Positions 1 to 30,710 of a stretch of 49,538 nt of DNA are shown piece by piece. Below the pieces are notes generated by a model that was not told the DNA's origin, did no database searches, and saw only the letters and a list, made by a program, of their open reading frames with translations. Source of the stretch: Anaerolineales bacterium. GTDB lineage: Bacteria; Chloroflexota; Anaerolineae; Anaerolineales; Villigracilaceae. The translations under genes were made by a program, and so were the position numbers. Location of the stretch: NCBI GenBank assembly GCA_014860805.1, contig JACZJB010000051.1, forward strand, positions 1 through 49,538, given 5' to 3'. Each line of letters begins with the position of its first letter. Position 1 is the stretch's first letter.

Positions 1-40
1 CCGTATGCTCATAGAGATAAACGATATCGACTTCTCGCAC
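1..40 (-). CDS. Start of an unidentified protein, cut by the window edge
   Basis: A GTG codon two bases after the transketolase stop opens a frame that stays open to the window edge and encodes VREVDIVYLYEHT. The tight spacing fits another gene of the same minus-strand operon. Only about 13 residues are visible, so the family cannot be named; the position after NeuB, aldehyde dehydrogenase, CMP transferase and transketolase suggests a glycan-related role. The start is uncertain because no clear ribosome binding site precedes it. Confidence 0.4.
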   Translation of the reverse strand, partial: MREVDIVYLYEHT

Positions 41-42
41 GA

Positions 43-2028
43 TTATTGATCGCTCGCTTCCAAAATTCTTTCCGCAAGCGATGCGCCGTCGAGACGATGA
101 TATTTCAAGGCTTCCTGTGGTGTGCCGCAGGCGGGCCAACCTTCCACGGCGAAGCGCACTAAGCGACGGGTGGCAAGCGGTTTGTTTTTGCTGGCAGCAA
201 GCAGTTCCAACAGGTGATCTGTTAACGCGCCGGAGGGATAATGGTCTTCCAGCACAAAGATTAATTCAAATGGCTTGATAATTTCTTCTAGCCATTTGGA
301 ATCTACGCGGTTGAGCCAGGGCAGGTTGACAACTTTTAAACCAACGCCGCGCTCGGCCAGTAATTCTTGAGCCAGTAACGCTTCATGCAGCATGACGGGG
401 CCATATGCAAACAGAATCGCATCCCTGCCTTCGGTAAGTGCTATGCCTTCCCCAAAGGTTAGTTTGTAATCTTTAGGTAACTGAATTTTGCGCGGCGAAG
501 GCCCAATAATGAAACGTAGGGCCACATTTTCTTTTGCCTGCTCCACGCTGTATTCCACCACCATACGCGTTTCTTCGGCATTGCAAGGTTGAATAATGAC
601 GCAATTTGGGAGCGCGGCAAACAATGAAATATCACGCAAAGATTGGTGGGATTTACCCGGGCCTGCGGGAATGAGACCAGCATAATGCAAGGCGTAGATG
701 ATCTTGGTTTTCTCGCTGGCATTGTTGTAAATTTGTTCGTTGGCACGAGAAGCAAGGAAACTTGCGAACGAATTGACGATGGGCAGCAATCCCTTACGCG
801 CCAGTCCGCCCGCCATGGAGACCATATCTTGCTCGGCGATGCCGTTTTCAATAAAACGTTCAGGATAGGCATACTCAAAGTCGCGGGTCTTACAGTCCGA
901 TGAGAGGTCGGCATCTAGGACAACAATATCTTTACGGCGTGCGCCAATTTCGACCAATGCCTGTCCATAGGCGCGGGCAACAAATTCATCTGTCACTTTG
1001 GAAGATAGTTTCTCCTGCGCGGCCTGGCTGAGAGGCTCGCCAGCCAGCATCGAAGCGGGCGGACGTTTTTCTTCAGGGGCGATATCTTTCAATTCAACAG
1101 GAGCAAGCCCCAGGCCCGAAAGAGAGGTGTTGATCCGTTCGATGAGTTCGTTGTATCCCTTTTCAAAGGACACATCATCTGGAGCGCCGGAATGCCAGGG
1201 ATAAAGTCCCTTACCCATTTCGAGGGCGGTTGAATGTTCCATAAATGAAATGCCGCGCCCTTTGATCGTATCCGCAATAATGATCTGCGGTCTATCTTTT
1301 ACTTTACGAACTTCTGCCAACGCTTTTTCAATTTGATGATAATCGTGTCCATCAATGCGCTGAACATGCCAGCCAAAAGCACGATATTTTGCCTCAATAT
1401 CACCCAGGCTCATGATTTCATCCACGAGCTTATCGGACTGCACCTTATTATCATCCACGATAACCGTGAGGTTGTCGATCTTCTGTTGAACAGCAGATTG
1501 AAGCGCCTCGTAATTCTGACCTTCCTGCCATTCGCCGTCTCCTGTCAAAACGTATACATGGCCGGCGTGCCTAAAGTGTTTCTTCGCCCAGGCCATTCCA
1601 CGTCCCTTTGAAATGCCCATACCTAGTGAACCGGAATTGGCTTCGATGCCAGGGATATTCAGGTCCGGATGTCCATCCAAGCCCCCAAGGCGGCGAAGGC
1701 TGATAATTTTTTCTTCGGGCAATATTCCCAGCGAATACATGGTTGCATAGAGGCCGGGCACATCGTGACCTTTGGATGAGAAATAAATATCGCGGTCAGG
1801 GCTATCGAAGCCCACTTTGAGGGTATTCATTTCTTCGTAATATAGCCATGTGACAATATCCATTGCGCTGAATGAAGAACCCAGATGCCCGGAACCTGCT
1901 CGCTTGACCTCCGCAAGCGTGTTAGCGCGATTCATATTGGCAATAATGGCAAGTTTATTGTATTTATCAATTTGAGAATTGTGAATACGTTGGAATTCTT
2001 GATAGGGGATGAGTTTGATTGTAGTCAT
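43..2028 (-). CDS. Transketolase, single-chain
   Basis: Thiamine-diphosphate enzyme that moves two-carbon ketol units between sugars. The 661-residue chain has both halves. The N-terminal half carries the diphosphate-binding GDGEWQEG (about 163-170) and VDDNK further on, with His-rich SKGHD and GSGHLG motifs. The C-terminal half carries ENGIAEQDM, containing the expected catalytic Glu. Length is normal for a fused transketolase, whereas many glycan loci use split halves. ATG 2028 has AAGGAAA just upstream. It is the last complete gene of the NeuB block, 82 bases after the cytidylyltransferase. Its place suggests that it makes or rearranges a sugar precursor for the surface glycan rather than serving central metabolism, but that is inference; a housekeeping role is not excluded. 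Confidence 0.9.
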   Translation of the reverse strand: MTTIKLIPYQEFQRIHNSQIDKYNKLAIIANMNRANTLAEVKRAGSGHLGSSFSAMDIVTWLYYEEMNTLKVGFDSPDRDIYFSSKGHDVPGLYATMYSLGILPEEKIISLRRLGGLDGHPDLNIPGIEANSGSLGMGISKGRGMAWAKKHFRHAGHVYVLTGDGEWQEGQNYEALQSAVQQKIDNLTVIVDDNKVQSDKLVDEIMSLGDIEAKYRAFGWHVQRIDGHDYHQIEKALAEVRKVKDRPQIIIADTIKGRGISFMEHSTALEMGKGLYPWHSGAPDDVSFEKGYNELIERINTSLSGLGLAPVELKDIAPEEKRPPASMLAGEPLSQAAQEKLSSKVTDEFVARAYGQALVEIGARRKDIVVLDADLSSDCKTRDFEYAYPERFIENGIAEQDMVSMAGGLARKGLLPIVNSFASFLASRANEQIYNNASEKTKIIYALHYAGLIPAGPGKSHQSLRDISLFAALPNCVIIQPCNAEETRMVVEYSVEQAKENVALRFIIGPSPRKIQLPKDYKLTFGEGIALTEGRDAILFAYGPVMLHEALLAQELLAERGVGLKVVNLPWLNRVDSKWLEEIIKPFELIFVLEDHYPSGALTDHLLELLAASKNKPLATRRLVRFAVEGWPACGTPQEALKYHRLDGASLAERILEASDQ

Positions 2029-2110
2029 AATTTCCTTTTGGCATGGTGATGTAGATAATAGATTTTTATACAGATCACATTACGCAAAAAGCACATTTCA
2101 CCATGAGATT

Positions 2111-2851
2111 TTATTTTATCTCGGGCAGTTTTGCCTGCCCAGTTCTTACGAGTTTTTCGGCCAATTCCCAGTCGTAGGGATGATTCACATCAAAGCCTTC
2201 ATAGTTTTGAGTTAGAAAAGGCATGACCACATTGCCAGCAATAGTATGCTCTTCCAAGACCACACGTGTCCACGCGATTTCCAGGCTGGCGTTTTGAATA
2301 TAGACTTCCGGCAATGCCTGATATGGTGTGCTGTGCCAGGGTTGTTCCGCCGGACCAATGGGTAAAAGCGGCATCATGCGTTTGCCACGAATGACCCACA
2401 TCTTACCAGGATGCTCATGGCACTTTTCTACGGCGCGGAGAGAGTCTACGCCTTCCACGGCAACGAACTCGTTCCATGCACGCTGGATCGTTTCAGGTAA
2501 TCGGAACGGGCTAGTTGGGCGCAAAAGGCTGAAGCAATCATATTCGCGGCCAAGTTCCCTAAGTCTGCGGAGTGTGTAATGGAGCCAGTCAATATCGGGG
2601 GATACATCTCCTGACATTTCCACAGGACGCAAAAAAGGAACCTCTGCACCGTATATTCGTGCTACTTCAGCATATTGTGGCGAATCGGTGGAAACAACGA
2701 CTGCGGAGAAAATGCCGCTTTGTATTGCCGCCGAGATCGTATATGCAATCATAGGGTGCCCGGCCAATGGACGGATATTTTTATCGGCAACTCGTTTGGA
2801 ACCAGAACGAGCCGGGAGCAAGGCGATTGCGGAAGGGGAATTCTTGATCAT
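2111..2851 (-). CDS. CMP-sugar (acylneuraminate-type) cytidylyltransferase
   Basis: Predicted to activate a 3-deoxy keto sugar acid with CTP, giving a CMP-sugar donor. The N-terminus has the family signature LLPARSGSKRVADKN (residues 11-25), which binds CTP, followed by a nucleotidyltransferase fold with VVVSTDSPQYAEVA and LLRPTSPFR. Its 246 residues match NeuA/PseF-type enzymes without an extra esterase domain. The start overlaps the stop of the aldehyde dehydrogenase by four bases (ATGA), showing translational coupling. Together with the NeuB homologue two genes upstream it points to a nonulosonic- or Kdo-like acid. The sugar specificity cannot be read from the sequence. Confidence 0.88.
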   Translation of the reverse strand: MIKNSPSAIALLPARSGSKRVADKNIRPLAGHPMIAYTISAAIQSGIFSAVVVSTDSPQYAEVARIYGAEVPFLRPVEMSGDVSPDIDWLHYTLRRLRELGREYDCFSLLRPTSPFRLPETIQRAWNEFVAVEGVDSLRAVEKCHEHPGKMWVIRGKRMMPLLPIGPAEQPWHSTPYQALPEVYIQNASLEIAWTRVVLEEHTIAGNVVMPFLTQNYEGFDVNHPYDWELAEKLVRTGQAKLPEIK

Positions 2852-4308
2852 ACCTTTGAGGGATCAATATTGATATACAGGTCTTTCAATTCAGAATAGA
2901 TATTCAGTGCTTCTGTCCCCGGTTCACGAGAACCATTTCCTGATTGTTTGCGCCCGCCAAACGGCATATGCGGTTCAGATCCATGCGTGCCCGCATTGAC
3001 AACCGCTACGCCGGTTTGCACTTTATCAGCAAAACGCAGCGCACGGTGGATGGACTTGGTGTGAATGGATGCCGTAAGGCCGTAAGGAGAATCATTTGCG
3101 AGAGCAAGCGCTTCGTCAAAATCCTTTACAGGGTAAAGAATCGCAACTGGACCAAAAAGTTCACATTCTGAAATCTCATCGTGCGGGGCAACACCATCGA
3201 TCAAAGTTGGAGCCATATAGAATCCGCTGCGATGGGAGTCGTCAACAAGGCGGTTACCGCCTGTCAAAATATTGGCACCATTTTTAAGCGCGTTTTGAAC
3301 TACCAATGTCATACTATTTAATTGGCCTTCATTGATCACCGGACCAAAATCGTCTTCATCGGATGTACCCACACGAAGTTTCTTTGTTTTTTCCACGAGC
3401 AAATCACGGAATTTTTCATACACGGCATCAAAGATAATCACTCGGCTGGTGGATGCGCAACGTTGTCCTGCGTTACTAAACGAAGAAAGAAGCACCCATT
3501 TAGCCGCATTATCCAGATCAGCATCGTCACACACTACAAGCGAATTCTTGCCACCAAGTTCAAGGGAGATGCGGGCAAAACGCGGCCCTGCGACTCGCTG
3601 GATATATCTTCCTACTTCTGTTGAGCCAGTGAAGGAGATCACCCCCACTTTAGGGTTCTCTACCAATGGAGCGCCGGCCTCCTCGCCATAGCCTTGTACA
3701 ATATTCAACACACCAGCAGGCAAACCAACCTCTTGGGCGATCTTTCCAATAAACCACGCCGTGGCAGGCGTATCCTCCGATGCCTTTAAGATGGCAGTAT
3801 TCCCGCAAATTAACGCGGGGAATATCTTCCACGCCACATTGGCGATTGGCGTATTAGCTGCAATAACGAGGCCTGCAACACCGATTGGTTGCCGAACTGT
3901 CATCGCATATTTATTTGGAGTCCCACTTGTCGTAGTGCGGCCATACAATCGTTGACCTTCGCTCGCGTAAAACAATCCGCACTGAATCGCTCCTCCAGTT
4001 TCGCCCAATGCTTCTTTATAGGATTTTCCAGTTTCCGCAGCTACGATGCGTGCAACCTCTTCCTGGCGGTTTTGCATCTCGACTACTATTTTATGAAGAA
4101 GAAGTCCGCGTTGGACGGCGGGTGTATCGGACCATGCCGGGAAGGCGTCTAACGCCGCCTCCACAGAAGCAGTCACATCGTCCGCGCGAGAACGGGCGGC
4201 ACGGGTTAGAAGCTTTCCGTTGGACGGATCCAGCTTGTCAAACCACTCATCTGCTTTGGCAGAACATTCTTCACCGCCAATCCAATTGGGAATTTTTTCA
4301 GGTATCAT
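2848..4308 (-). CDS. NAD(P)-dependent aldehyde dehydrogenase
   Basis: ALDH-superfamily enzyme of 486 residues, normal length. The catalytic Cys lies in NAGQRCASTSRV (about C284), the general base Glu in SLELGGKN (about E250), and the oxyanion Asn near N152. The NAD-binding SFTGSTEVGR is also present. It overlaps NeuB upstream and the cytidylyltransferase downstream by four bases each, so the three proteins are made together. An aldehyde dehydrogenase is not part of the known sialic, legionaminic or pseudaminic acid routes; it may oxidise a sugar aldehyde to an acid before or after the NeuB step. The substrate is unknown; succinate-semialdehyde-type enzymes are the closest general class by eye. 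Confidence 0.88.
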   Translation of the reverse strand: MIPEKIPNWIGGEECSAKADEWFDKLDPSNGKLLTRAARSRADDVTASVEAALDAFPAWSDTPAVQRGLLLHKIVVEMQNRQEEVARIVAAETGKSYKEALGETGGAIQCGLFYASEGQRLYGRTTTSGTPNKYAMTVRQPIGVAGLVIAANTPIANVAWKIFPALICGNTAILKASEDTPATAWFIGKIAQEVGLPAGVLNIVQGYGEEAGAPLVENPKVGVISFTGSTEVGRYIQRVAGPRFARISLELGGKNSLVVCDDADLDNAAKWVLLSSFSNAGQRCASTSRVIIFDAVYEKFRDLLVEKTKKLRVGTSDEDDFGPVINEGQLNSMTLVVQNALKNGANILTGGNRLVDDSHRSGFYMAPTLIDGVAPHDEISECELFGPVAILYPVKDFDEALALANDSPYGLTASIHTKSIHRALRFADKVQTGVAVVNAGTHGSEPHMPFGGRKQSGNGSREPGTEALNIYSELKDLYINIDPSKV

Positions 4309-5354
4309 GCCAGATCCTCGAACATAATATCCTCATCTTCAGCCAACGGACGCTTGAGCGTCTTACCAAGAATATTGTACAACTCGTAAGGGGGGAGGCC
4401 ATCACCGGGAGATTTGACAGCTATATCCGCCTCGGTCAAAACCTGACCTGCGGGTAGATTCTGCTTTGCAACAAGCTTTTTGCTCATCTTGGAAATTGGT
4501 CCCACCTCATTTGGCAGGACGTGTTTAATTCCGTCACCAAGCGCCTCACGAACACGACGTAAATCGCGGACGAGTTTTTTCATCCCAATCGGCTCAAGCG
4601 AAAAGACCTGATCCGTCCCTTTCCAGGTATGATTAATAGTGAAGTGTTGTTCAATGATGCGCATCCCAAGGATATAGGCAGCAGTTGCCATGGCAATTCC
4701 ATTTTCGTGATCAGAAAGACCGATTACAGTGTCAGGGAATTGGTGGCGAAATGTCTCAATCACGCGCAAATTAAGATCATGATGTTCCGCCGGGTACGAG
4801 GAGGTACATTGCAAAATAGCTAACTGGTTATTAATAGGCATAATTGCATCATAAGCACGTTGAACATCCTCCATATTCGCCCCGCCCGTACTAATAATCA
4901 TTGGCTTGCCAAATTTAGCCACATGCTTAAGCAAAGGTGTGTTTTTCAAATCACCCGAAGCGATTTTATAAACAGGCAAGTCGAGTTCGGCAAGGAAGTC
5001 CGCGCTAGGGATGTCGAATGCAGTGGCAAACATAGTCACGCCCAATTCTTTGGCATATTTCTGCAATTCAACATATTCCGCCTTACCAAATTCGAGAAAC
5101 TCACGGTGTTCACCATAAGTGAGGCCAAAACTATTCTCGTTTTCATACGGCTTATAATATGCCGCTTTTGTAAAAAGCGACTTGTTATCACGCTTTTGCA
5201 ACTTGACCGCATTTACACCGCACTCTGCAGCGGCTTTAAATAGTTGTTTTGCCTTCTCTAGGCTGCCTTGGTGGTTGTGTCCGATCTCGGCAATGACGTA
5301 ACAATCGCTGGAATCGGAGATTTCAAAATTGTTTATGATGAGTTTTCTAGGCAT
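4305..5354 (-). CDS. NeuB-family synthase (PEP-dependent keto sugar acid synthase)
   Basis: Condenses phosphoenolpyruvate with an aldose to give a 3-deoxy-2-keto sugar acid. The N-terminal TIM barrel has AEIGHNHQG (about 22-30), VKLQKRD, YKIASGD, and IGLSDHE; the C-terminal SAF/antifreeze-like domain lies at about 285-345 (QVLTEADIAVKSPGDGL). Its 349 residues match bacterial NeuB enzymes. ATG 5354 has AGGAAA eight bases upstream. It is the first gene of the overlapping block NeuB-ALDH-cytidylyltransferase. No hydrolysing UDP-GlcNAc epimerase or legionaminic/pseudaminic precursor enzymes are beside it, so its aldose partner is not identified. Confidence 0.9.
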   Translation of the reverse strand: MPRKLIINNFEISDSSDCYVIAEIGHNHQGSLEKAKQLFKAAAECGVNAVKLQKRDNKSLFTKAAYYKPYENENSFGLTYGEHREFLEFGKAEYVELQKYAKELGVTMFATAFDIPSADFLAELDLPVYKIASGDLKNTPLLKHVAKFGKPMIISTGGANMEDVQRAYDAIMPINNQLAILQCTSSYPAEHHDLNLRVIETFRHQFPDTVIGLSDHENGIAMATAAYILGMRIIEQHFTINHTWKGTDQVFSLEPIGMKKLVRDLRRVREALGDGIKHVLPNEVGPISKMSKKLVAKQNLPAGQVLTEADIAVKSPGDGLPPYELYNILGKTLKRPLAEDEDIMFEDLA

Positions 5355-6164: not shown

Positions 6165-7136
6165 TTAGCCAAGAGAGCTTTTTTCGAACACCGTATGTGA
6201 AATGAGGGCAGCCAATTCCGCCCGTCCACGTTGATTCAGGTGTTCTGTGGCTTCATCAATATTGAAAAATTTATCCGAGGATAAAGAAATACTAAAATCG
6301 GAAAAATTTATTGTATTACCCAGAAAAGGAAATATAGCGTCCTGAATTACCTGAGTATTTTTTTTAAGAAGTTTTACAAACTCATTACCCACATACCTCT
6401 CACCCGCCTGATAATTAATCGGTGTTATATAGATCAACAAATTAATCTTCAGTTCCTGCATGAGCCGAATGGTTTCGAGCAGAGAGTGCAATTTTGGATG
6501 TTGTGATGAAAGCGAATGAAGGTAATGAAAAATGAATATTTGCTCTTTTCTATAAAAAAATTGTTCTTGCGTCTGCGGCTTTCCATTAATGAGCAGACGG
6601 AACTGACCAATTCTGTTGAAATTCGTCAAAGGATAACATACTTCAGTAGCGTCAAAAACTTCGTATAACTCTGAGGTAATCACGGGCTTGTCCAATATAG
6701 GTATCGTTTTTGAGAGGCTTAAAACATAGTCACCAATCAGGCTTATTTCCTGTTCAAATTGCCAAGATGGTTCAAAATCCCATTGAGGGGAAAAACTCCG
6801 CATATTTATCGGGAAGATTACCAAATCAGGTTTTTGAGGTGTAATCTTCAATACCTCAAGGAGGCTGTAGTAAATCTTCGTATGATAGGCTGAATGCGAA
6901 AGGCAAGCTAGTTTGTATTTTCCTTCAAATTCCTTTTCGATAAACCTACCAAGGTTTCTCTTATCTGTATCCGACTTTGATACCCGTTCGGCAACGGAAT
7001 CTCCCAACAAAAGGATTTTTGGCGTGGGCATTTCAGAGCCATACCACTGGACCAAACGTTGTAATTCTACGTAAGGGTGTACACGTCGGGGCAGCATGGA
7101 CTTAATACGCTGGAAGATGGAATCTACCAAATTCAT
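6165..7136 (-). CDS. SGNH/GDSL-like protein of the glycan locus
   Basis: Hypothetical protein of about 323 residues with an SGNH-hydrolase pattern: KILLLGDSVAERV near the N-terminus (block I GDS with the candidate nucleophile Ser), PINMRSF in the middle, and EHLNQRGRAELA near the C-terminus, where a block V His is expected. SGNH proteins in such loci add or remove O-acyl groups. No signal peptide is obvious. ATG 7136 follows the flippase stop; an in-frame TTG at 7157 with AGGTG upstream would overlap the flippase by eight bases and cannot be excluded. It sits next to a sugar methyltransferase, which suggests glycan decoration. Overall similarity is too weak to give a reaction. Confidence 0.6.
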   Translation of the reverse strand: MNLVDSIFQRIKSMLPRRVHPYVELQRLVQWYGSEMPTPKILLLGDSVAERVSKSDTDKRNLGRFIEKEFEGKYKLACLSHSAYHTKIYYSLLEVLKITPQKPDLVIFPINMRSFSPQWDFEPSWQFEQEISLIGDYVLSLSKTIPILDKPVITSELYEVFDATEVCYPLTNFNRIGQFRLLINGKPQTQEQFFYRKEQIFIFHYLHSLSSQHPKLHSLLETIRLMQELKINLLIYITPINYQAGERYVGNEFVKLLKKNTQVIQDAIFPFLGNTINFSDFSISLSSDKFFNIDEATEHLNQRGRAELAALISHTVFEKSSLG

Positions 7137-7149
7137 ATACGAGGATCGA

Positions 7150-8685
7150 TCAGCCAACGGACACCTGCTTCTGCAAGAATCTCTTTAGAAACGGAGCTTT
7201 TTTAGCCAGATCAAGCACTGCCCATCGAATCGTGGGTGAAAATACCATAGACAAAACCAAATATATAAGACATCCGACTGTAATGTTGATAAACAAAAAT
7301 AGCAGCCCCTGAACGAATGATTGCACCAGATATGTAATGCCAAAAGTTGCAAGGCTTAATACAATGAACAACAAAGTATCTGTAAAATACCAAACTTTTT
7401 TCTCTGAAGGCAGAACATATCGATGCATAATATGTGGCACTATCAAATAATATGAAACATTAAAGATAAGCCATGCGATACCCGCACCCGCCACCCCATA
7501 GTGTTTGATTAGGAAATACATGAGGGGCGCAAGAACAACAAGATTGATGGCGTTGTTCCACAGACTGATCCAGGTGATGCCAGCTGCCAATTGCAGCATA
7601 AATGGAATTTGCATCATCGAATTGAAGATGGCAGCAATCGCAAGGATAGAAAGGGTCTGAGCTGAATGAACAGCGATGTCTTCAGAGCCCGTCCATAGCA
7701 AAAGGATGTCAAATGAAAAAAACAAAAGGATGCTGGTAATGGGCATGACAATAAAAGAGACGCACTGACACATTTTATGATATGTTGCCACAAGTTCATC
7801 ATGTTCATTTGAAGCAATCAATGCGGTAAAACGGGGAAATGCCACGGATGCAAAAGGAGAGGTAACCATCGACACGGCTGAATAAGCCGCATTTGCTGTC
7901 GTATAGTATCCCATCTGCGAAAGCAAAAGCAATTTGCTGATCAAAACTCTATCCATCTGTTTGGTAATTGCAGCAAAAAGAGAGTTTAAACCAACAGAGG
8001 CGCTAAATCTCCAGATCGGTTTCAAGAGAGAAATTTTTATTCGGGGAGCATGATCAGAGTCGACACGGATAACTCTCCAACCAGCCAGCGCCATAACACC
8101 CAATTCCAACAGAGCTGAAATCAATTGCCAAACCAGATAGGCAACGATGGTATGAGACACAAAAACAACTACAACGGCTGCGCCAACGCTCCGCAGCGTT
8201 GTCACCACCACAGAAAGAATGTTGTATAAAACCTGCTTCTCTGAGCCAAGCAGAATTCCATTATATAAAGCAACAGGCCAGCGTAACGCAAGTGTGATAC
8301 CAAAGATCATCGCAGCCAGGCGTACAGTCTCAACAGACAACTCTTGCTCGTTGATCCACTCCCGTGCCAGCCAATCTGAAGACAAAATGAAACCAGCTGC
8401 AATCAGAAGCGCAACCAATCCATACACCACTTCCAGAGTACGCATAAGGTCACGAGTCTTCTCTTTTTGTCCCGCTGAACTTAACCCATATGCCACTTCG
8501 CGATTTGTTGTTGTACTCAAACCTAAATCCAGAAAACCGATTAATGCCTGAAGCGACACAAAAAATCCTACAAGCCCATATGCCTCGATCCCTAAATAAT
8601 GCAGATATACTGGAACAAGAGCCAGCCCAAGCAAACTTGGCCAGACCCTGCCTACAAAGTTAGCAATAATATTATTTCTAACCAT
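7150..8685 (-). CDS. Wzx-type oligosaccharide flippase
   Basis: Polytopic inner-membrane protein of 511 residues in the MATE/Wzx polysaccharide-export fold, predicted to move lipid-linked oligosaccharide across the membrane. It has about 12-14 hydrophobic helices, with the N-terminal NFVGRVWPSLLGLALVPVYL helix and a GLVGFFVSLQALIGFLDLGL stretch typical of these flippases. Its ATG shares one base with the aminotransferase stop (TAATG), so it is co-translated with the UDP-ManNAc3NAcA pathway genes. A second flippase lies at 26987-28318, so the window may serve two export routes. Confidence 0.85.
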   Translation of the reverse strand: MVRNNIIANFVGRVWPSLLGLALVPVYLHYLGIEAYGLVGFFVSLQALIGFLDLGLSTTTNREVAYGLSSAGQKEKTRDLMRTLEVVYGLVALLIAAGFILSSDWLAREWINEQELSVETVRLAAMIFGITLALRWPVALYNGILLGSEKQVLYNILSVVVTTLRSVGAAVVVVFVSHTIVAYLVWQLISALLELGVMALAGWRVIRVDSDHAPRIKISLLKPIWRFSASVGLNSLFAAITKQMDRVLISKLLLLSQMGYYTTANAAYSAVSMVTSPFASVAFPRFTALIASNEHDELVATYHKMCQCVSFIVMPITSILLFFSFDILLLWTGSEDIAVHSAQTLSILAIAAIFNSMMQIPFMLQLAAGITWISLWNNAINLVVLAPLMYFLIKHYGVAGAGIAWLIFNVSYYLIVPHIMHRYVLPSEKKVWYFTDTLLFIVLSLATFGITYLVQSFVQGLLFLFINITVGCLIYLVLSMVFSPTIRWAVLDLAKKAPFLKRFLQKQVSVG

Positions 8686-9785
8686 TAGGAACCTGCAAAC
8701 CCTCTCACCGCCGCGATCACTTCATCCTGCTGTTCCAGAGTCAACTCCGGGTAGAGTGGAAGCGCCAGTGTCTCGCGTGCAGCCAGCTCGGCATGAGGAA
8801 AATCGCCTTCTTTATATCCAAACGCGCGGCATGGCACAGAAAGATGAGGCGGCAGGGGATAATACACTTCCGAAGCAATCCCCTTTTGCTTTAAGAACGC
8901 TTGCAGTTCATCGCGTTTCGCAGAACGGATAATATACAAATGATACACATGCTTCGCCCATTCACACTCCAAAGGAATTACAACCCCTGAAGAACCAAGC
9001 TTCTCATTGTAACGATGAGCCAACGCACGGCGTTTATCATTCCATAAATCGACATATGGAAATTTCGCCTGAAGGATTGCGGCCTGCAACGCATCAAGGC
9101 GGCTGTTATAACCGACCTCTTCTGAATAATATTTTTTCTTCCAGCCATGCGTGCGCAGCATTCTCATTCGTTCATCCAGTGCAGGATCGTTCGTCAACAC
9201 CATGCCTGCATCGCCAAACGCACCGAGATTTTTTGTGGGGAAGAAACTTAAAGAGGCAATATCACTCAAAGAACCTGTTTTTCTTCCCAGGTATTCCGCA
9301 CCAAATCCCTGGGCATTATCCTCGATCACTTTCAAATTATTTTCGCGCGCAATCGCAAGGATCGGATTCATATCAGCAGGATGCCCGTAAAGATGCACAG
9401 GGATGATCGCCTTTGTCTTTGGCGTAATCGCGGATTTAATTTTGTTCACATCAATTTGATAACTTTGCGGATCCACATCCACAAACACAGGCTTCGCACC
9501 AACAGACATGACCGTGCCGGCAGTTGCAAAAAATGTATACGCAGGAATAACAACCTCATCGCCCTCGCCGATATTCAATGCACGCAAAGCAATGACAAGC
9601 GCATCTGTACCTGAGGCAAGCCCAATGGCATGCTTCACGCCAAGATATGTCGCAACACTTTCCTCAAACTTTAGGACCTGAGGACCAAGGATAAAATGCC
9701 CAGACTCCAGAGTGGATAATACAGCCGCATCAATTTCTTCCTTGATGGAATGATACTGCGCTGTTAAGTCAACCAAAGAAATCAT
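8685..9785 (-). CDS. wlbC: PLP-dependent sugar aminotransferase (WlbC/WbpE-like)
   Basis: DegT/DnrJ/EryC1 aminotransferase of 366 residues, predicted to aminate UDP-3-keto-GlcNAcA at C3 using glutamate and PLP. The PLP Lys is K185 in [24 protein letters not shown] and [11 protein letters not shown] complete the PLP pocket. It is placed directly between the WlbB acetyltransferase (four-base overlap) and the flippase (one-base overlap). The assignment to C3 amination rests on the neighbouring WlbA and WlbB homologues; other family members act on dTDP-sugars, so specificity is inferred from context. Confidence 0.85.
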
Positions 9786-10363
9786 TGCTCGCCTCTCTCT
9801 GAACCGACAACTGAGTCCTGTTTTCTATATGCATCGCCGCAGCTTTGACAGACTGCCCGATCGCTCTCAAACTTTAACTGCTCCCCACATTGACACATCC
9901 ATCCACGCACACGCGCAGGCGACCCATAGACAAGTGCATAATCAGGCACATCCTTTGTCACCACCGCGCCCGCACCGACAAAACAATATTTCCCCAATGT
10001 CACACCGCACACAATCGTTGCATTCGCCCCAATGGACGCCCCTTTGCGCACCAGCGTGGTCTTATATTCGTCCTTACGATTTACATGGCTGCGTGGATTG
10101 ATCACGTTGGTAAAGACCATCGAAGGACCGAGAAAGACATTGTCCTCAACGATTACACCAGTATACAGCGAAACATTGTTCTGGATTTTTACATTATTTC
10201 CAATCGTCACATCAGAGGAAACCAGCACGTTCTGACCGATGTTACATCTTTCGCCGATCTTCGCACGAGGCATAACATGGCAGAAATGCCATATTTTCGT
10301 ACCAGCGCCAATCTCTGCGCCGTCATCCACATAACTGGATTGGTGAACAAAATAATCTGGCAC
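9782..10363 (-). CDS. wlbB: UDP-3-amino-sugar N-acetyltransferase (WlbB/WbpD-like) with C-terminal zinc ribbon
   Basis: Left-handed beta-helix acetyltransferase, 193 residues, expected to acetylate the 3-amino group with acetyl-CoA. Hexapeptide repeats fill residues 15-140 ([37 protein letters not shown]). After the usual [10 protein letters not shown] end it carries C157-x-C159 and C172-x-x-C175, a short zinc-ribbon-like tail. The start is GTG at 10363, eight bases after the WlbA stop; the in-frame ATG downstream would cut the conserved N-terminus. The wlbA-wlbB-wlbC order is that of known diacetamido-uronic acid clusters. Confidence 0.88.
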
Positions 10364-10370
10364 AGTGACT

Positions 10371-11312
10371 CTACTTCTTTAAAAGCGGATGAATCAGATC
10401 ATCCTTCGGTGAGATTTCGGCTGTACGTATCGCATGGGTCAGGCCAATTGAAGGACGGGCATCCGCAATGCCAAAGCCGCGTCCTGCCAGGGTTTCTTCA
10501 TAGACGCGGGTATGCAGATCCGTAAAACCTTCTGAAAATTCGACTTCCTTGCCGTCCACCGTAATGGAGCGGTAGGTTGTCTTTCCGCCGGCTTTTGCAG
10601 AGTCAGGCAGATCGTTTTTATCAACGGACAAAAACCAACGCACACGCGCACGCTCCAGTTCAATAAAACCAGACATGCGCTGATCATCCGAATGATATAC
10701 CTTGATGCCGTTTACAGGGCCGAACAGCCACATCAACAAATCAAAGAAATGCACACCGATATTCGTCGCGACACCGCCCGATTTATCGGAGTGTCCCTTC
10801 CAGGAAACCTGATACCAGGGACCGCGGCTCGTAATATAAGTCAGGTCCACATCATGGACGGCGCTCTCTTTTTGAAGAGACTCGCGGAGCTTGATCAATG
10901 CGGGATGAACACGCAACTGCAAGACCGTATGGATGTGGTGCTTTGTTTCAGCTTCAAGTTCTTCAAGGGCATCCATGTTCCAGGGATTGATGACGAGCGG
11001 CTTTTCGCAGATCACATCTGCTCCGGCGCGCAGGGCAAGGCGGCAGTGTGAATCATGCAAATAGTTTGGCGAACAAATCGAAACATAGTGGATGCGTCCC
11101 ACTTCAGGCCCTCTGCGCAATTTTTCCAAATGACGGTCAAAGCGCTCGATCTCGGTAAAGAATTTCACATCGAAGGAATACTGGTCCAGCACGCCAACCG
11201 AATCCTTTGGATCCACGGCTGCCAGCAGTTGATTGCCAGTATCTCGAATGGCTCGCAAATGGCGGGGTGCAATATAACCGCCTACGCCGATCACAGCAAA
11301 GTTCTTTGACAT
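10371..11312 (-). CDS. wlbA: UDP-GlcNAcA 3-dehydrogenase (WlbA/WbpB-like oxidoreductase)
   Basis: Gfo/Idh/MocA-family enzyme of 313 residues that oxidises UDP-GlcNAcA at C3. It matches WbpB/WlbA closely by eye: [18 protein letters not shown] (NAD-binding), [41 protein letters not shown] and [14 protein letters not shown] are all family landmarks. ATG 11312 is chosen because AAAGGGAA stands just before it; longer upstream frames overlap the regulator. It lies 17 bases after the winged-helix regulator and heads the wlbA-wlbB-wlbC run. Known homologues recycle NAD using 2-oxoglutarate; the sequence does not show whether this one does. Confidence 0.92.
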
Positions 11313-11329
11313 AAATTCCCTTTTGGATA

Positions 11330-11797
11330 TTATCTCTTTAACCGCTTTACTTGATACCCCTGCCCGGCAGATTCGAGCACACAATCATCTGGAATATCGC
11401 TGATGTGAATCCCAGCTTCGATACAGGTGAGCCGTAAAATGTCGATCATCTCATCGTCGCCGTTGAGATAGACATTTTGAACTCCTTGTTGTTGTAGTTC
11501 CACTGCAATTGCTTTTGCCTTTTCACGAAAACTGCCATAGACTTTTAACGAATCCCGGGCATACGAAACTGCACGCTGGGTAAATATTTTCATACCTTCA
11601 GGCGTCAGGTCATATTTCAGGCGGGTGCGGTCGAGGTGTGAAACCTTTACCCAGCCGCGATGAATCAAACGTTTGATATACCAGTTGACGCTGCCAACAG
11701 CGATACCAAGGCGGTCAGACAAATTAGCCTGGGTCACCATCGAATCCTGGGCAATTTCATTGAGGAGGGCGTATTCGTGCTGTTTGATTTCTGTCAT
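11330..11797 (-). CDS. Winged-helix transcriptional regulator of the glycan locus
   Basis: Protein of about 155 residues with an N-terminal MarR-like winged helix: HEYALLNEIAQDSMVTQANL, then LGIAVGSVNWYIKRLIHRGW as the recognition helix and wing. The C-terminal half (residues 65-155) contains an alpha/beta segment with VQNVYLNGDDEMIDILRLTC, of unknown ligand. ATG 11797 is preferred because the more distant TTG at 11848 lies inside a good TTGACA promoter hexamer. It is transcribed first in the wlbA-to-transketolase run, so it may control that operon. No ligand or operator is known. Confidence 0.75.
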   Translation of the reverse strand: MTEIKQHEYALLNEIAQDSMVTQANLSDRLGIAVGSVNWYIKRLIHRGWVKVSHLDRTRLKYDLTPEGMKIFTQRAVSYARDSLKVYGSFREKAKAIAVELQQQGVQNVYLNGDDEMIDILRLTCIEAGIHISDIPDDCVLESAGQGYQVKRLKR

Positions 11798-11819
11798 AAT
11801 TTGAGCATTCAGTTTTTGA

Positions 11820-11848
11820 ATTCTCACATAAAAACACCCCCGTGTCAA
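11820..11848 (-). promoter_or_regulatory. Sigma-70-type promoter for the regulator-wlb-neuB operon
   Basis: Reading the minus strand, TTGACA (11848-11843) is followed by a 17-base spacer and GAGAAT (11825-11820). The perfect -35 and ideal spacing make this the best classical promoter in the window. It starts transcription just before the winged-helix regulator and after the UDP-GlcNAc 2-epimerase gene. Confidence 0.65.
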
Positions 11849-11860
11849 GTAACGAAATTT

Positions 11861-12931
11861 TCAGCGGAGGGCCGAGAAAATTGTTTTACTGATCTCAACG
11901 GCAGAATGGCCGTCGCCATACAATGCGGCACGCTCCCCTTGCGGATGCCAGTTTTTATAGGTGTCCACAATCAGATCCGTATTCACTCCCACAAGTTTAT
12001 TCCACCCAGCCGCGACCGTCTCCACCCATTCTGTATCTTCCCGCAAGGTAATACAGCGCACGCCGGCCAGATACGCCTCTTTTTGGACACCTCCTGAATC
12101 GGTCAGAATACAATTGGAATTTTCCTGTAGGACCAGCATATCAAAATAGCCAACCGGCTCAACCATCAACACGTTCGCGCCTGTTGATATTTCCCATTCA
12201 TTGATCGTTTTGCGTGTGCGCGGATGTACGGGAAAAATGACCTGAGTATCCAATTTCCCCAGCCCATCCAGAATGGAACGCATCCGTTCGATGGAATCTG
12301 TATTGGCGGCGCGATGGACTGTGGCAAGCGCGTATCCGCCTTTTTTCAGGCCAAGCTGATCCAAAATTTTAGATTTCGCGCGCGCGTTAGCAAGGTTATA
12401 CAGCAGGGCATCATACATGACATCGCCTACTCGATGGACACCCTGTACAATCCCCTCTTTTGCAAGGTTTTTAACCGCCGCGTCTGTTGGACAAAACAAC
12501 AAGTTGGATACATGATCGGTCAAAACACGATTGACCTCTTCCGGCATCGTTCGGTCATAGGACCTCAAACCTGCCTCTACGTGAGCAAGCGGAATCCCAG
12601 CTTTTGCCGCCGCGAGTGCGCCAGCCAGGGTGGAATTGGTATCGCCATACACCAAGATACAATCAGGTTTGACTGAAGTTAAAATCTTTTCAAGCTCAAT
12701 CAGCATCAGGCCTGTTTGTTCAGCGTGCGTCCCTCCCCCAATACCGAGATTGAACTCGGGCTTCTTTATTTCCATCTCTTCGAAGAAAACATCGGACATG
12801 CCGTAATCATAATGCTGCCCGGTATGAACCATCACTTCATGAAAGAACGGTATCAACGCCCGGGAAACCGGAGCCGCCTTTATGAATTGAGGTCGCGCCC
12901 CGACAATGGTGACAATAGTTTTAGCCTTCAT
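11861..12931 (-). CDS. UDP-GlcNAc-type 2-epimerase (non-hydrolysing, WecB/WlbD fold)
   Basis: 356-residue epimerase that inverts C2 of a UDP-HexNAc substrate. Landmarks are VGARPQFIKAAPV at the N-terminus, VHTGQHYD, HVEAGLRSYDRTMPEEVNR with the active-site residues, VHPRTRK and LTDSGGVQKEA with the UDP-binding region. In a WlbA/B/C context it most likely converts UDP-GlcNAc3NAcA to UDP-ManNAc3NAcA (WbpI/WlbD role), but plain UDP-GlcNAc epimerisation (WecB) is possible and cannot be separated by eye. Its ATG overlaps the upstream GT4 stop by 11 bases. Confidence 0.88.
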   Translation of the reverse strand: MKAKTIVTIVGARPQFIKAAPVSRALIPFFHEVMVHTGQHYDYGMSDVFFEEMEIKKPEFNLGIGGGTHAEQTGLMLIELEKILTSVKPDCILVYGDTNSTLAGALAAAKAGIPLAHVEAGLRSYDRTMPEEVNRVLTDHVSNLLFCPTDAAVKNLAKEGIVQGVHRVGDVMYDALLYNLANARAKSKILDQLGLKKGGYALATVHRAANTDSIERMRSILDGLGKLDTQVIFPVHPRTRKTINEWEISTGANVLMVEPVGYFDMLVLQENSNCILTDSGGVQKEAYLAGVRCITLREDTEWVETVAAGWNKLVGVNTDLIVDTYKNWHPQGERAALYGDGHSAVEISKTIFSALR

Positions 12932-19772: not shown

Positions 19773-20735
<963 letters not shown>

Positions 20736-29354: not shown

Positions 29355-30677
29355 TTACAATCTTTCAACCTTCTCGTGGTCTTTCCCATACTTCCCCGTT
29401 GCATTGCGTGAATCAAAGACAAATTTGGCGGCTTCGATGATCGCCTTGTAATCATATTCGCTGTGGTTGGTAATGATAACGACTGCGTCGGATTCTTTCA
29501 CAGATTTCATCATATCCTTAACGCTGTCCATTCTCCAGCCGTCGTATTCATGATGGATGCGCGGAATATATGGATCGTGATACTCCACGATTGCCCCTTT
29601 CTTTTGCAGCAGGCCAATCACATCCAACGCAGGTGATTCACGCACATCATCAATGTCAGGTTTGTAAGCCACACCAAGGACAAGTACCTTCGAGCCTTTA
29701 AGGGGTTTGCCGCGATCGTTCATACCTTCGAGCACACGGCTGACAACATAACGCGGCATATTGGTGTTGATCTCAGACGCCAACTCAATGAAGCGGGCAT
29801 TGTAATTAAAGGATTTCATTTTCCAGGAAAGATACAGGGGGTCAATCGGAATGCAATGTCCGCCCAAGCCTGGGCCTGGGGTGAATTTCATAAAGCCAAA
29901 TGGTTTGGTCGCCGCCGCCTCGATCACTTCCCACACATCCACGCCAAGGCGTTCACACATGATTGCCAGTTCATTGACTAGACCAATGTTGATCATGCGG
30001 AACGTATTCTCCAGCAGTTTAGACATTTCCGCCGCTTCCGCAGTAGATACATGATGCACAGTCTTAATCGCACCTTCATACCAGACTGTCGCCACCTCAC
30101 CACAGGTTTCGGTGATACCGCCCATCACCTTGGGTGTGTTGATGGTCGTGTAATCTTCGCGCCCGGGATCCACACGCTCCGGGGAAAATGCAAGGAACCA
30201 ATCCACGCCAACTTTCAAGTCGTGTTCGATCCCCAGCTTTGGCAGGAGCAGTTCACGGGTCGTACCGGGATACGTGGTTGATTCTAAAACAACCACCATG
30301 CCTTTATGCATGTACTTCGCCAATTCCTCCGTCGCCGAAATAATGAAGGACATATCCGGGTCGCCTGTCTGGCGCAGCGGAGTCGGCACACAAATGCTGA
30401 CCGCATCCATATCCTTCAATACTGAAAAATCGGTTGTGGCGGTGAAAAGACCATCTTTGACGAGTTTTGCGACGGCTTCCGTTTTCACGTCTGGGATATA
30501 GGATTCCCCTGCCAGTAACGCGTCGATCTTACGTTTATCAGGGTCCACACCAGTGACATGGAACCCCGCCTGACCAAATACCACAGCCAGCGGCAGGCCT
30601 ACATACCCCAGCCCAAGGATGGCAACTTTTGCACTTTTATCTTTTAATTTTTTCGTCAAACTTTCTTTTGTAGTCAT
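29355..30677 (-). CDS. UDP-GlcNAc/UDP-glucose-type 6-dehydrogenase (WbpA-like)
   Basis: 440-residue nucleotide-sugar dehydrogenase oxidising C6 to the carboxylate with NAD. ILGLGYVGLPLAVVFGQAGF is the NAD-binding motif; ESTTYPGTTRELL and FSPERVDPGRED are typical of the WbpA/UDP-GlcNAc branch; catalytic Cys is in GPGLGGHCIPIDPLYL; VLGVAYKPDIDDVRESPA marks the C-terminal domain. ATG 30677 has GAGG seven bases upstream; the TTG at 30689 is inside that spacing and is rejected. It can provide UDP-GlcNAcA for the WlbA-B-C enzymes 17 kb away, or uronate for the adjoining epimerase. Confidence 0.9.
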   Translation of the reverse strand: MTTKESLTKKLKDKSAKVAILGLGYVGLPLAVVFGQAGFHVTGVDPDKRKIDALLAGESYIPDVKTEAVAKLVKDGLFTATTDFSVLKDMDAVSICVPTPLRQTGDPDMSFIISATEELAKYMHKGMVVVLESTTYPGTTRELLLPKLGIEHDLKVGVDWFLAFSPERVDPGREDYTTINTPKVMGGITETCGEVATVWYEGAIKTVHHVSTAEAAEMSKLLENTFRMINIGLVNELAIMCERLGVDVWEVIEAAATKPFGFMKFTPGPGLGGHCIPIDPLYLSWKMKSFNYNARFIELASEINTNMPRYVVSRVLEGMNDRGKPLKGSKVLVLGVAYKPDIDDVRESPALDVIGLLQKKGAIVEYHDPYIPRIHHEYDGWRMDSVKDMMKSVKESDAVVIITNHSEYDYKAIIEAAKFVFDSRNATGKYGKDHEKVERL

Positions 30678-30710
30678 TCTGTTCCTCAATTTTTACTGTA
30701 ATTTCAAAAT

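Follow-up and report, generated by a model that had tools for sequence, protein, structure and literature searches.

Why would a full-length transketolase be encoded in one operon with a NeuB-family synthase? The question is raised by the left end of a 49,538-base stretch of DNA, here called the window. It is the whole of contig C140 in the 4.23-Mb, 274-contig genome (G000) of an uncultured member of the Anaerolineales (Chloroflexota), so that the left edge of the window is the end of an assembled contig. An earlier note on this DNA had reported there a single operon holding a NeuB-family synthase, an aldehyde dehydrogenase (ALDH), a CMP-sugar synthetase or cytidylyltransferase (CMPt) and a full-length transketolase (Tkt), and coordinates and Pfam families both agree with this (Table 1). 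We propose, with a probability of about 40%, that this cassette encodes a pathway of its own, leading to a CMP-activated ulosonic acid with a shortened tail, i. e. a 3-deoxy-heptulosaric route. The gene set, its conservation, its co-occurrence and the changes in its Tkt are observed, and from them we infer the substrates, the order of the steps and the product.

Table 1. Genes of the cassette at the left end of the window.
Gene product	Position	Strand	Family matches
NeuB-family synthase with C-terminal SAF domain	4305..5354	-	Pfam NeuB, 258 bits; SAF
NAD(P)-dependent aldehyde dehydrogenase (ALDH)	2848..4308	-	Pfam Aldedh, 499 bits
CMP-sugar synthetase (CMPt; cytidylyltransferase), PseF/NeuA-like	2111..2851	-	Pfam CTP_transf_3, 72.8 bits
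Transketolase (Tkt), full length	43..2028	-	Pfam Transketolase_N, Transket_pyr, Transketolase_C (PP, Pyr, C domains)

The genes had been said to overlap or abut. Two 4-base overlaps were indeed found, NeuB/ALDH at 4305-4308 and ALDH/CMPt at 2848-2851; Tkt starts 82 bases past the CMPt stop, so that a gap separates this last pair. The end of a TylF-like methyltransferase gene lies 12 bases ahead of NeuB, and for this reason the operon probably extends upstream. All four products stay under curated cut-offs: NeuB scores 307 bits on NCBIfam TIGR03569 (cut-off 399.65) and 239.6 bits on the PseI model (340.25), CMPt 134.5 bits on the PseF model (205.7), ALDH 416.6 bits on its top NCBIfam match, alpha-ketoglutaric semialdehyde dehydrogenase (770), and Tkt falls below the cut-offs of the transketolase models that are its top NCBIfam matches. 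Neither a PseI nor a PseF equivalog assignment thus applies. The ALDH translation contains Cys (GQRC) and Glu (LELGG) of catalytic type, which we take to be the catalytic motifs of the family.

To see how far the set extends, the CMPt alignment was scanned against 84,980 species genomes and 80 loci were kept; most were found through CMPt, so that the counts favour CMPt-bearing loci. CMPt proteins above 50% identity came from Chloroflexota, Desulfobacterota-type and other Deltaproteobacteria, Alphaproteobacteria, SAR86, Acidobacteria, Bdellovibrio relatives, Bacteroidetes, Actinomycetota and archaea, taxa being taken from record titles, several of them of metagenome-assembled genomes and at least one ('Bifidobacterium breve') looking wrong. 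Outside the genus of the window the commonest order was NeuB-HAD-SDR-ALDH-CMPt-Tkt, with genes often overlapping. The four-gene set first described is therefore superseded by one of six functions, a short-chain dehydrogenase/reductase (SDR) and a KdsC-like HAD phosphatase being added in other phyla.

Loci were split by hand according to identity, 15 falling in the group of the window and 41 outside it; a cassette Tkt was present in 32 of the latter and absent from 9. SDR was within the fetched stretch at 24 of the 32 Tkt loci and elsewhere in the genome for 5 more, i. e. it was found for all 29 testable loci or genomes (L058 and L075, on cut contigs, and L068 are left out of this count). NeuB was local at 22/32 and elsewhere in 6 more genomes, 4 being untestable, while ALDH was local at 22/32 and elsewhere in one more genome. 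CMPt was scored at 27/32 by script, 29 when L066 and L083, fetched by their CMPt match, are counted, and elsewhere in one more; it was absent from L161 and L165. ALDH without Tkt was seen at one locus, on a cut contig (L084).

Two other phyla, represented by 396 and 398 genomes, were searched with Tkt only, at most 3 candidates being scored per genome. Matches were obtained in 3 and 5 genomes respectively (8 of 794), and all 8 also contained SDR and NeuB; six were new, the two others (G529 and G531) being search centres known beforehand. In three of these genomes part of the set seemed to be missing until wider stretches were examined, which contained NeuB-HAD-SDR-ALDH-CMPt 20 kb away (G1287) or NeuB-HAD-SDR (G706, G1249). 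Chance neighbours were rejected as an explanation, as the set recurs over phyla. We conclude that Tkt, SDR, ALDH, CMPt, NeuB and HAD very probably serve one pathway, and that they make up a real, recurring and apparently undescribed gene set of the ulosonic acid family. A search of the literature on NeuB-type synthases and transketolase, made mostly without subscription papers, gave no description of this gene set among the matches listed; the heptulosaric papers listed dealt, by title and abstract, mostly with plants, pectin and algae.

Within the family, the window Tkt was searched in 152 genomes at E 1e-60, and matches were found in 18 genomes, all of the genus of the window. Of the 17 genomes besides that of the window, 16 supplied a stretch for comparison, and one further stretch was added; some are cut by contig ends. 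All four genes were present in 12 of the 13 stretches longer than 12 kb (in G100, NeuB was placed farther upstream), and they were directly consecutive in the window order at 8 of these 12 loci; the thirteenth stretch, from G138, contains no more than a piece of Tkt. The cassette genes are 70-82% identical to those of the window (71-75% for CMPt), and the adjoining polysaccharide genes vary between loci. The gene after Tkt encodes a protein of ∼470 amino acids at 10/12 loci and a different, 434-residue protein at 2/12, and no Pfam match was found for either in the examples scanned. The ∼470-residue proteins (e. g. L031 10981-12390) share 58-80% identity, and their structure model was too poor for use (mean pLDDT 41.4). 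A 330-residue protein at window positions 6165-7157, without Pfam or NCBIfam match, recurs beside the cassette at several loci of the genus. In G102 (L028 5485-11248), the ALDH, CMPt and ∼470-residue protein genes each match in two pieces, with other genes between ALDH and NeuB, which we read as gene decay or misassembly; copies that are split or disrupted (L028, L080, G138) were kept as they stand.

The earlier note had set the pathway apart from the N-acetylneuraminic acid (Neu5Ac), legionaminic and pseudaminic routes. Conservation across phyla upholds this, and so does locus L031, where a second set (NeuB, 28% identity; WecB-like protein, 28%; CMPt, 31%) lies immediately upstream of the cassette, so that the cassette should make another product or feed another step.

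The genome of the window also contains a housekeeping-type Tkt on contig C212, scoring 488.6 bits on PF00456 against 134.7 for the cassette Tkt, and a further Transketolase_N match on contig C24. A displaced housekeeping Tkt was rejected as an explanation of the cassette gene, as an ordinary Tkt is present in the genome. Alignment of 39 cassette rows, including 4 duplicate contigs and hence 35 distinct rows, with housekeeping Tkts indicated that the catalytic His residues 48, 88 and 120 are kept in all 34 covering rows and His 461 in all 35, which together with the three domains places these proteins among the transketolases. The catalytic Glu, E399, is found in 34 of 35 rows. Equivalents of E. 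coli R358, S385 and R520 differ in 34, 34 and 35 rows, respectively: Arg at the R358 column occurs in L080 alone, the S385 column is Asp in 34 rows and Ser in L080 alone, and no cassette Tkt has Arg at the R520 column. No Asp or Glu was found around the D469 stretch in the 35 distinct rows. R505 is invariant (35/35) and R465 nearly so (32/35); the housekeeping enzymes carry Ala/Ser and Glu at these positions. We take R358, S385, H461 and R520 of the E. coli enzyme to contact the substrate phosphate. These four residues and D469 line the transketolase substrate site, according to the accessible parts of two papers (PMC7661550, PMC10787763), and the second ties changes at H100 to pyruvate use. 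The H100 column is His in all covering cassette rows, so that a hydroxymethyl-ketone donor is favoured. Judging from these residues, the cassette Tkt is predicted to be a dedicated enzyme, distinct from the housekeeping one and performing ketol transfer.

The motif YGxHRE was found in 21/21 aligned cassette-type NeuBs, in 0/4 other NeuBs and in 0/2 NeuBs from a second locus of the same genus, described below. It resembles that of animal NANS. The cassette NeuBs are of two kinds, KLQKR-type as in the window and KFQTRNN-type (L070, L074, L080, L189), and YGxHRE is common to both. Its sequence leads us to predict that the cassette NeuB is a synthase of 3-deoxy-D-glycero-D-galacto-nonulosonic acid (Kdn) 9-phosphate, a 3-deoxy-2-ulosonate phosphate, using mannose-6-phosphate. 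The KdsC-like HAD and the YGxHRE-type NeuB both point to a phosphorylated hexose as the NeuB substrate and, if this is mannose-6-phosphate, a central metabolite, the lack of precursor genes needs no further explanation. The earlier note was right that a hydrolysing epimerase is missing: no NeuC-type enzyme was found among the scanned window genes, and the epimerase encoded at 11861-12931 scores above the cut-off of the model for non-hydrolysing WecB (318.5 against 210.15 bits) and far under that for NeuC (57.7 against 235.9 bits). Cassettes elsewhere likewise contained no hydrolysing UDP-GlcNAc 2-epimerase, this WecB-type protein being the only family member seen near the window cassette.

The HAD proteins matched the KdsC model best (117 bits, cut-off 208), and scored 83-98 bits on the Kdn-9-phosphatase model (cut-off 180). 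The SDRs matched many sugar and acyl dehydrogenase models, none over its cut-off. An Asp closes the second strand in 18 of the 21 SDR rows listed, the usual sign of NAD use. An SDR relative was found in 6/6 same-genus genomes searched, at another locus, side by side with a second NeuB. In the genome of the window this locus (L143, contig C216, 1453-10378) encodes an ATP-sulfurylase/APS kinase, a PMT-like protein, the SDR, a CMPt-HAD fusion, NeuB, a sulfotransferase and a Capsule_synth protein; its NeuB has 293 residues, and the alignment ends ahead of the SAF region. The content of L143 suggests a sulfated ulosonic acid glycan. That the window cassette borrows SDR and HAD functions from there is a guess. 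A protein of ∼570 residues with weak PF05159 (Capsule_synth) matches was seen at 16 searched loci, the second-locus control not counted, and in many cases its gene immediately follows Tkt. As members of this family include transferases of 3-deoxy-D-manno-octulosonic acid (Kdo), the protein is a candidate user of the CMP-sugar.

These elements can be ordered as follows. NeuB would join phosphoenolpyruvate (PEP) and mannose-6-phosphate into Kdn-9-phosphate, mannose C2-C6 being kept as C5-C9 of Kdn, and the KdsC-like HAD would strip the phosphate. The NAD-dependent SDR would then oxidise the C8 hydroxyl, giving a hydroxymethyl ketone at C8-C9, CH2OH-CO-CHOH(C7)-CHO(C6), and Tkt would take this 8-keto-Kdn as donor and cut off C8-C9, leaving an aldehyde at C7. 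ALDH is predicted to oxidise the aldehyde left by Tkt to a carboxylate, which would yield a 3-deoxy-hept-2-ulosaric acid, and CMPt would form the CMP-sugar, to be used by a polysaccharide glycosyltransferase. In the genus of the window, the phosphatase and SDR steps would be served from another locus. Transketolase donors have a D-threo arrangement. Read from C9, 8-keto-Kdn has this arrangement, and the D-fructose configuration at C3-C5 (worked by hand from standard Fischer projections); it thus matches a natural donor. Removal of C8-C9 gives the very aldehyde that ALDH needs, the lack of a phosphate on the proposed product fits the changed phosphate clamp, and a C6 oxygen held within the pyranose ring fits the lost D469 equivalent. 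Placing Tkt after NeuB and SDR oxidation therefore explains both the SDR and the lost phosphate-contacting residues. The aldaric-type acid with a second carboxylate guessed at in the earlier note is still the best guess; its order of steps is not retained, Tkt acting more likely after NeuB.

A variant was found in Actinomycetota. Plasmid records yielded a single Tkt relative at E 1e-70, on a stretch without gene table, whose open frames were read and scanned. This Streptomyces plasmid (NZ_CP108509.1, L161 4717-22996) and genome G702 (L165) carry consecutive NeuB, SDR and Tkt genes and lack both CMPt and ALDH. Neighbours on the plasmid are a HAD_2 phosphatase, an RmlD-like reductase, class III and class I/II aminotransferases, a P450 and an O-methyltransferase, and in G702 an RraA-like protein, an FAD oxidase, a class IV aminotransferase and an aldo-keto reductase. 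It looks like NeuB-SDR-Tkt is the core, with ALDH and CMPt, or aminotransferases, as alternative finishing steps; the replacement of ALDH and CMPt by aminotransferases fits an aldehyde as common intermediate, neighbourhood not being proof. The L161 and L165 clusters possibly make a natural product built on a ulosonate core. For Tkt itself, we tentatively suggest, at somewhat less than even odds, a chain-shortening role on a sialic-acid-type sugar: SDR would act at C8, Tkt would remove C8-C9 as a ketol, and the C7 aldehyde would be oxidised by ALDH or, in Actinomycetota, transaminated.

Several observations weigh against the proposed pathway. ALDH was not found for 9 of the 32 Tkt loci (L060, L061, L067, L068, L075, L149, L150, L161 and L165), nor in extra 20-kb flanks of L060, L061 and L149, and HAD was local at only 13/32, with 3 more in wider stretches. 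L063 and L072 have NeuB-SDR-CMPt without Tkt, so that SDR has a Tkt-independent use. In the genus of the window, the cassette has no SDR or HAD next to it, the SDR of the second locus is just 44-45% identical, and that locus has its own NeuB and sulfation genes. G138 carries a C-terminal Tkt remnant (L041 7074-7944) in a polysaccharide-type region of 14.9 kb without other cassette genes. As for Tkt, the L149 protein has Ala at the expected catalytic Glu, and that of L080, which keeps the Ser and Arg mentioned above, is split. The E. coli H461 column lacks His, yet 17 rows show His one column on, which makes the register uncertain by a residue. The Tkt structure model (pLDDT 83.5) is closer to 1-deoxyxylulose-5-phosphate synthase (DXS; TM 0.74) than to human transketolase (TM 0.45) in a PDB comparison, a DXS-like domain packing that is perhaps an artefact of folding one chain. 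Finally, the main form of Kdn is a pyranose whose ring includes O6, and Tkt would have to accept either this ring or the open chain.

The missing ALDH genes bear on another use of the same gene set, in which SDR would oxidise the ulosonic acid to a ketone. To this ketone, as acceptor, Tkt would add a two-carbon ketol, giving a branched or longer acid, with ALDH acting on a side product or in a further step. Thiamine enzymes make such two-carbon additions to keto-sugars in branched deoxysugars, and the absence of ALDH from 9/32 Tkt loci means that aldehyde oxidation is not always required. The frequent ALDH in the operon (22/32, and one elsewhere) is then unexplained, however, and a separate ketol donor is required, for which no gene recurs in the loci. 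We consider this chain extension unlikely.

The order suggested in the earlier note, in which Tkt would make an unusual aldose from a ketose before NeuB adds PEP, ALDH makes the second carboxylate and CMPt activates the product, seems less likely still. It uses all four window genes, dispenses with precursor genes, and would also form a ulosaric acid. Nevertheless, the aldoses of an ordinary Tkt are made anyway, a housekeeping-type Tkt being in the genome; HAD and the YGxHRE-type NeuB indicate a phosphorylated hexose substrate; and this order leaves the SDR, present for each of the 29 testable Tkt loci or genomes, without a function, nor does it explain the loss of phosphate-contacting residues. 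The least likely alternative, that the product is an ordinary one such as CMP-Kdn, for which NeuB, HAD and CMPt suffice in known organisms (PMC6200933), and that Tkt and ALDH merely keep central metabolism in balance (PEP, pentose phosphates, removal of glycolaldehyde) or work for a sugar made nearby, conflicts with the linkage of Tkt, SDR and NeuB across several phyla even without CMPt, with the altered Tkt active site, and with the persistence of the set while neighbouring sugar genes change.

Other sugar genes in the window, at 8685-12931 and 29355-30689, encode a Gfo/Idh dehydrogenase, a hexapeptide acetyltransferase, a DegT aminotransferase, the epimerase of WecB type and a nucleotide-sugar dehydrogenase (438 bits on TIGR03026); taken as a group, they resemble the known UDP-2,3-diacetamido-2,3-dideoxy-mannuronate set (Wbp/Wlb). 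A GDP-mannose 4,6-dehydratase over its equivalog cut-off (447.3 bits, cut-off 415) lies at 19773-20735, its start overlapping, as called, the end of a 649-residue membrane-type frame.

Returning to the chain-shortening pathway, one of its closest known relatives is the CMP-Kdn route, established from mannose-6-phosphate through Kdn-9-phosphate synthetase, a phosphatase and CMP-Kdn synthetase, as far as the accessible text of PMC6200933 goes. According to the same text, the route of Bacteroides thetaiotaomicron and Prymnesium parvum shares with the cassette a NeuB-type synthase and a CMP-sugar synthetase, here CMPt, and that of Bacteroides also shares with full cassettes a HAD phosphatase; like the cassette, it requires no amino-sugar precursor genes if mannose-6-phosphate is the substrate. 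Unlike the cassette, it has no SDR, Tkt or ALDH, and the cassette HAD falls under the Kdn-9-phosphatase cut-off. The Neu5Ac, legionaminic and pseudaminic pathways use the same PEP-condensing and CMP-activating families (NeuB/PseI, NeuA/PseF), whereas in the cassette all members are under curated cut-offs, SDR, ALDH and Tkt are extra, and the hydrolysing epimerase or dehydratase-aminotransferase set is lacking. The cassette Tkt shares domains and catalytic His and Glu with transketolase (EC 2.2.1.1) and DXS; it differs from transketolase by the replaced phosphate-contacting Arg and Ser, the new invariant R505 and, in the model, an apparent packing nearer to DXS. As to the product, plant Dha is a 3-deoxy-hept-2-ulosaric acid, the same class as proposed here, and a 2025 review, in its accessible part, lists its enzymes and nucleotide form as unknown (PMC12168206). 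The stereochemistry of Dha is Kdo-like, while for an acid derived from Kdn the L-arabino isomer is expected by hand derivation.

If the proposal is true, the cassette would be a genetically defined route to a ulosaric acid, and a transketolase that trims a finished sugar skeleton would be a new use of this enzyme in sugar-nucleotide biosynthesis. The gene set would give candidates for Dha-type biosynthesis and a way to reference compounds. Tkt found with NeuB and SDR would also be a marker for polysaccharide or natural-product clusters otherwise annotated as misplaced central metabolism. For the organisms themselves, it would mean a new nonulosonic acid branch, and environmental bacteria, wastewater Chloroflexota among them, would carry dicarboxylic seven-carbon sugars in their capsules or glycans.

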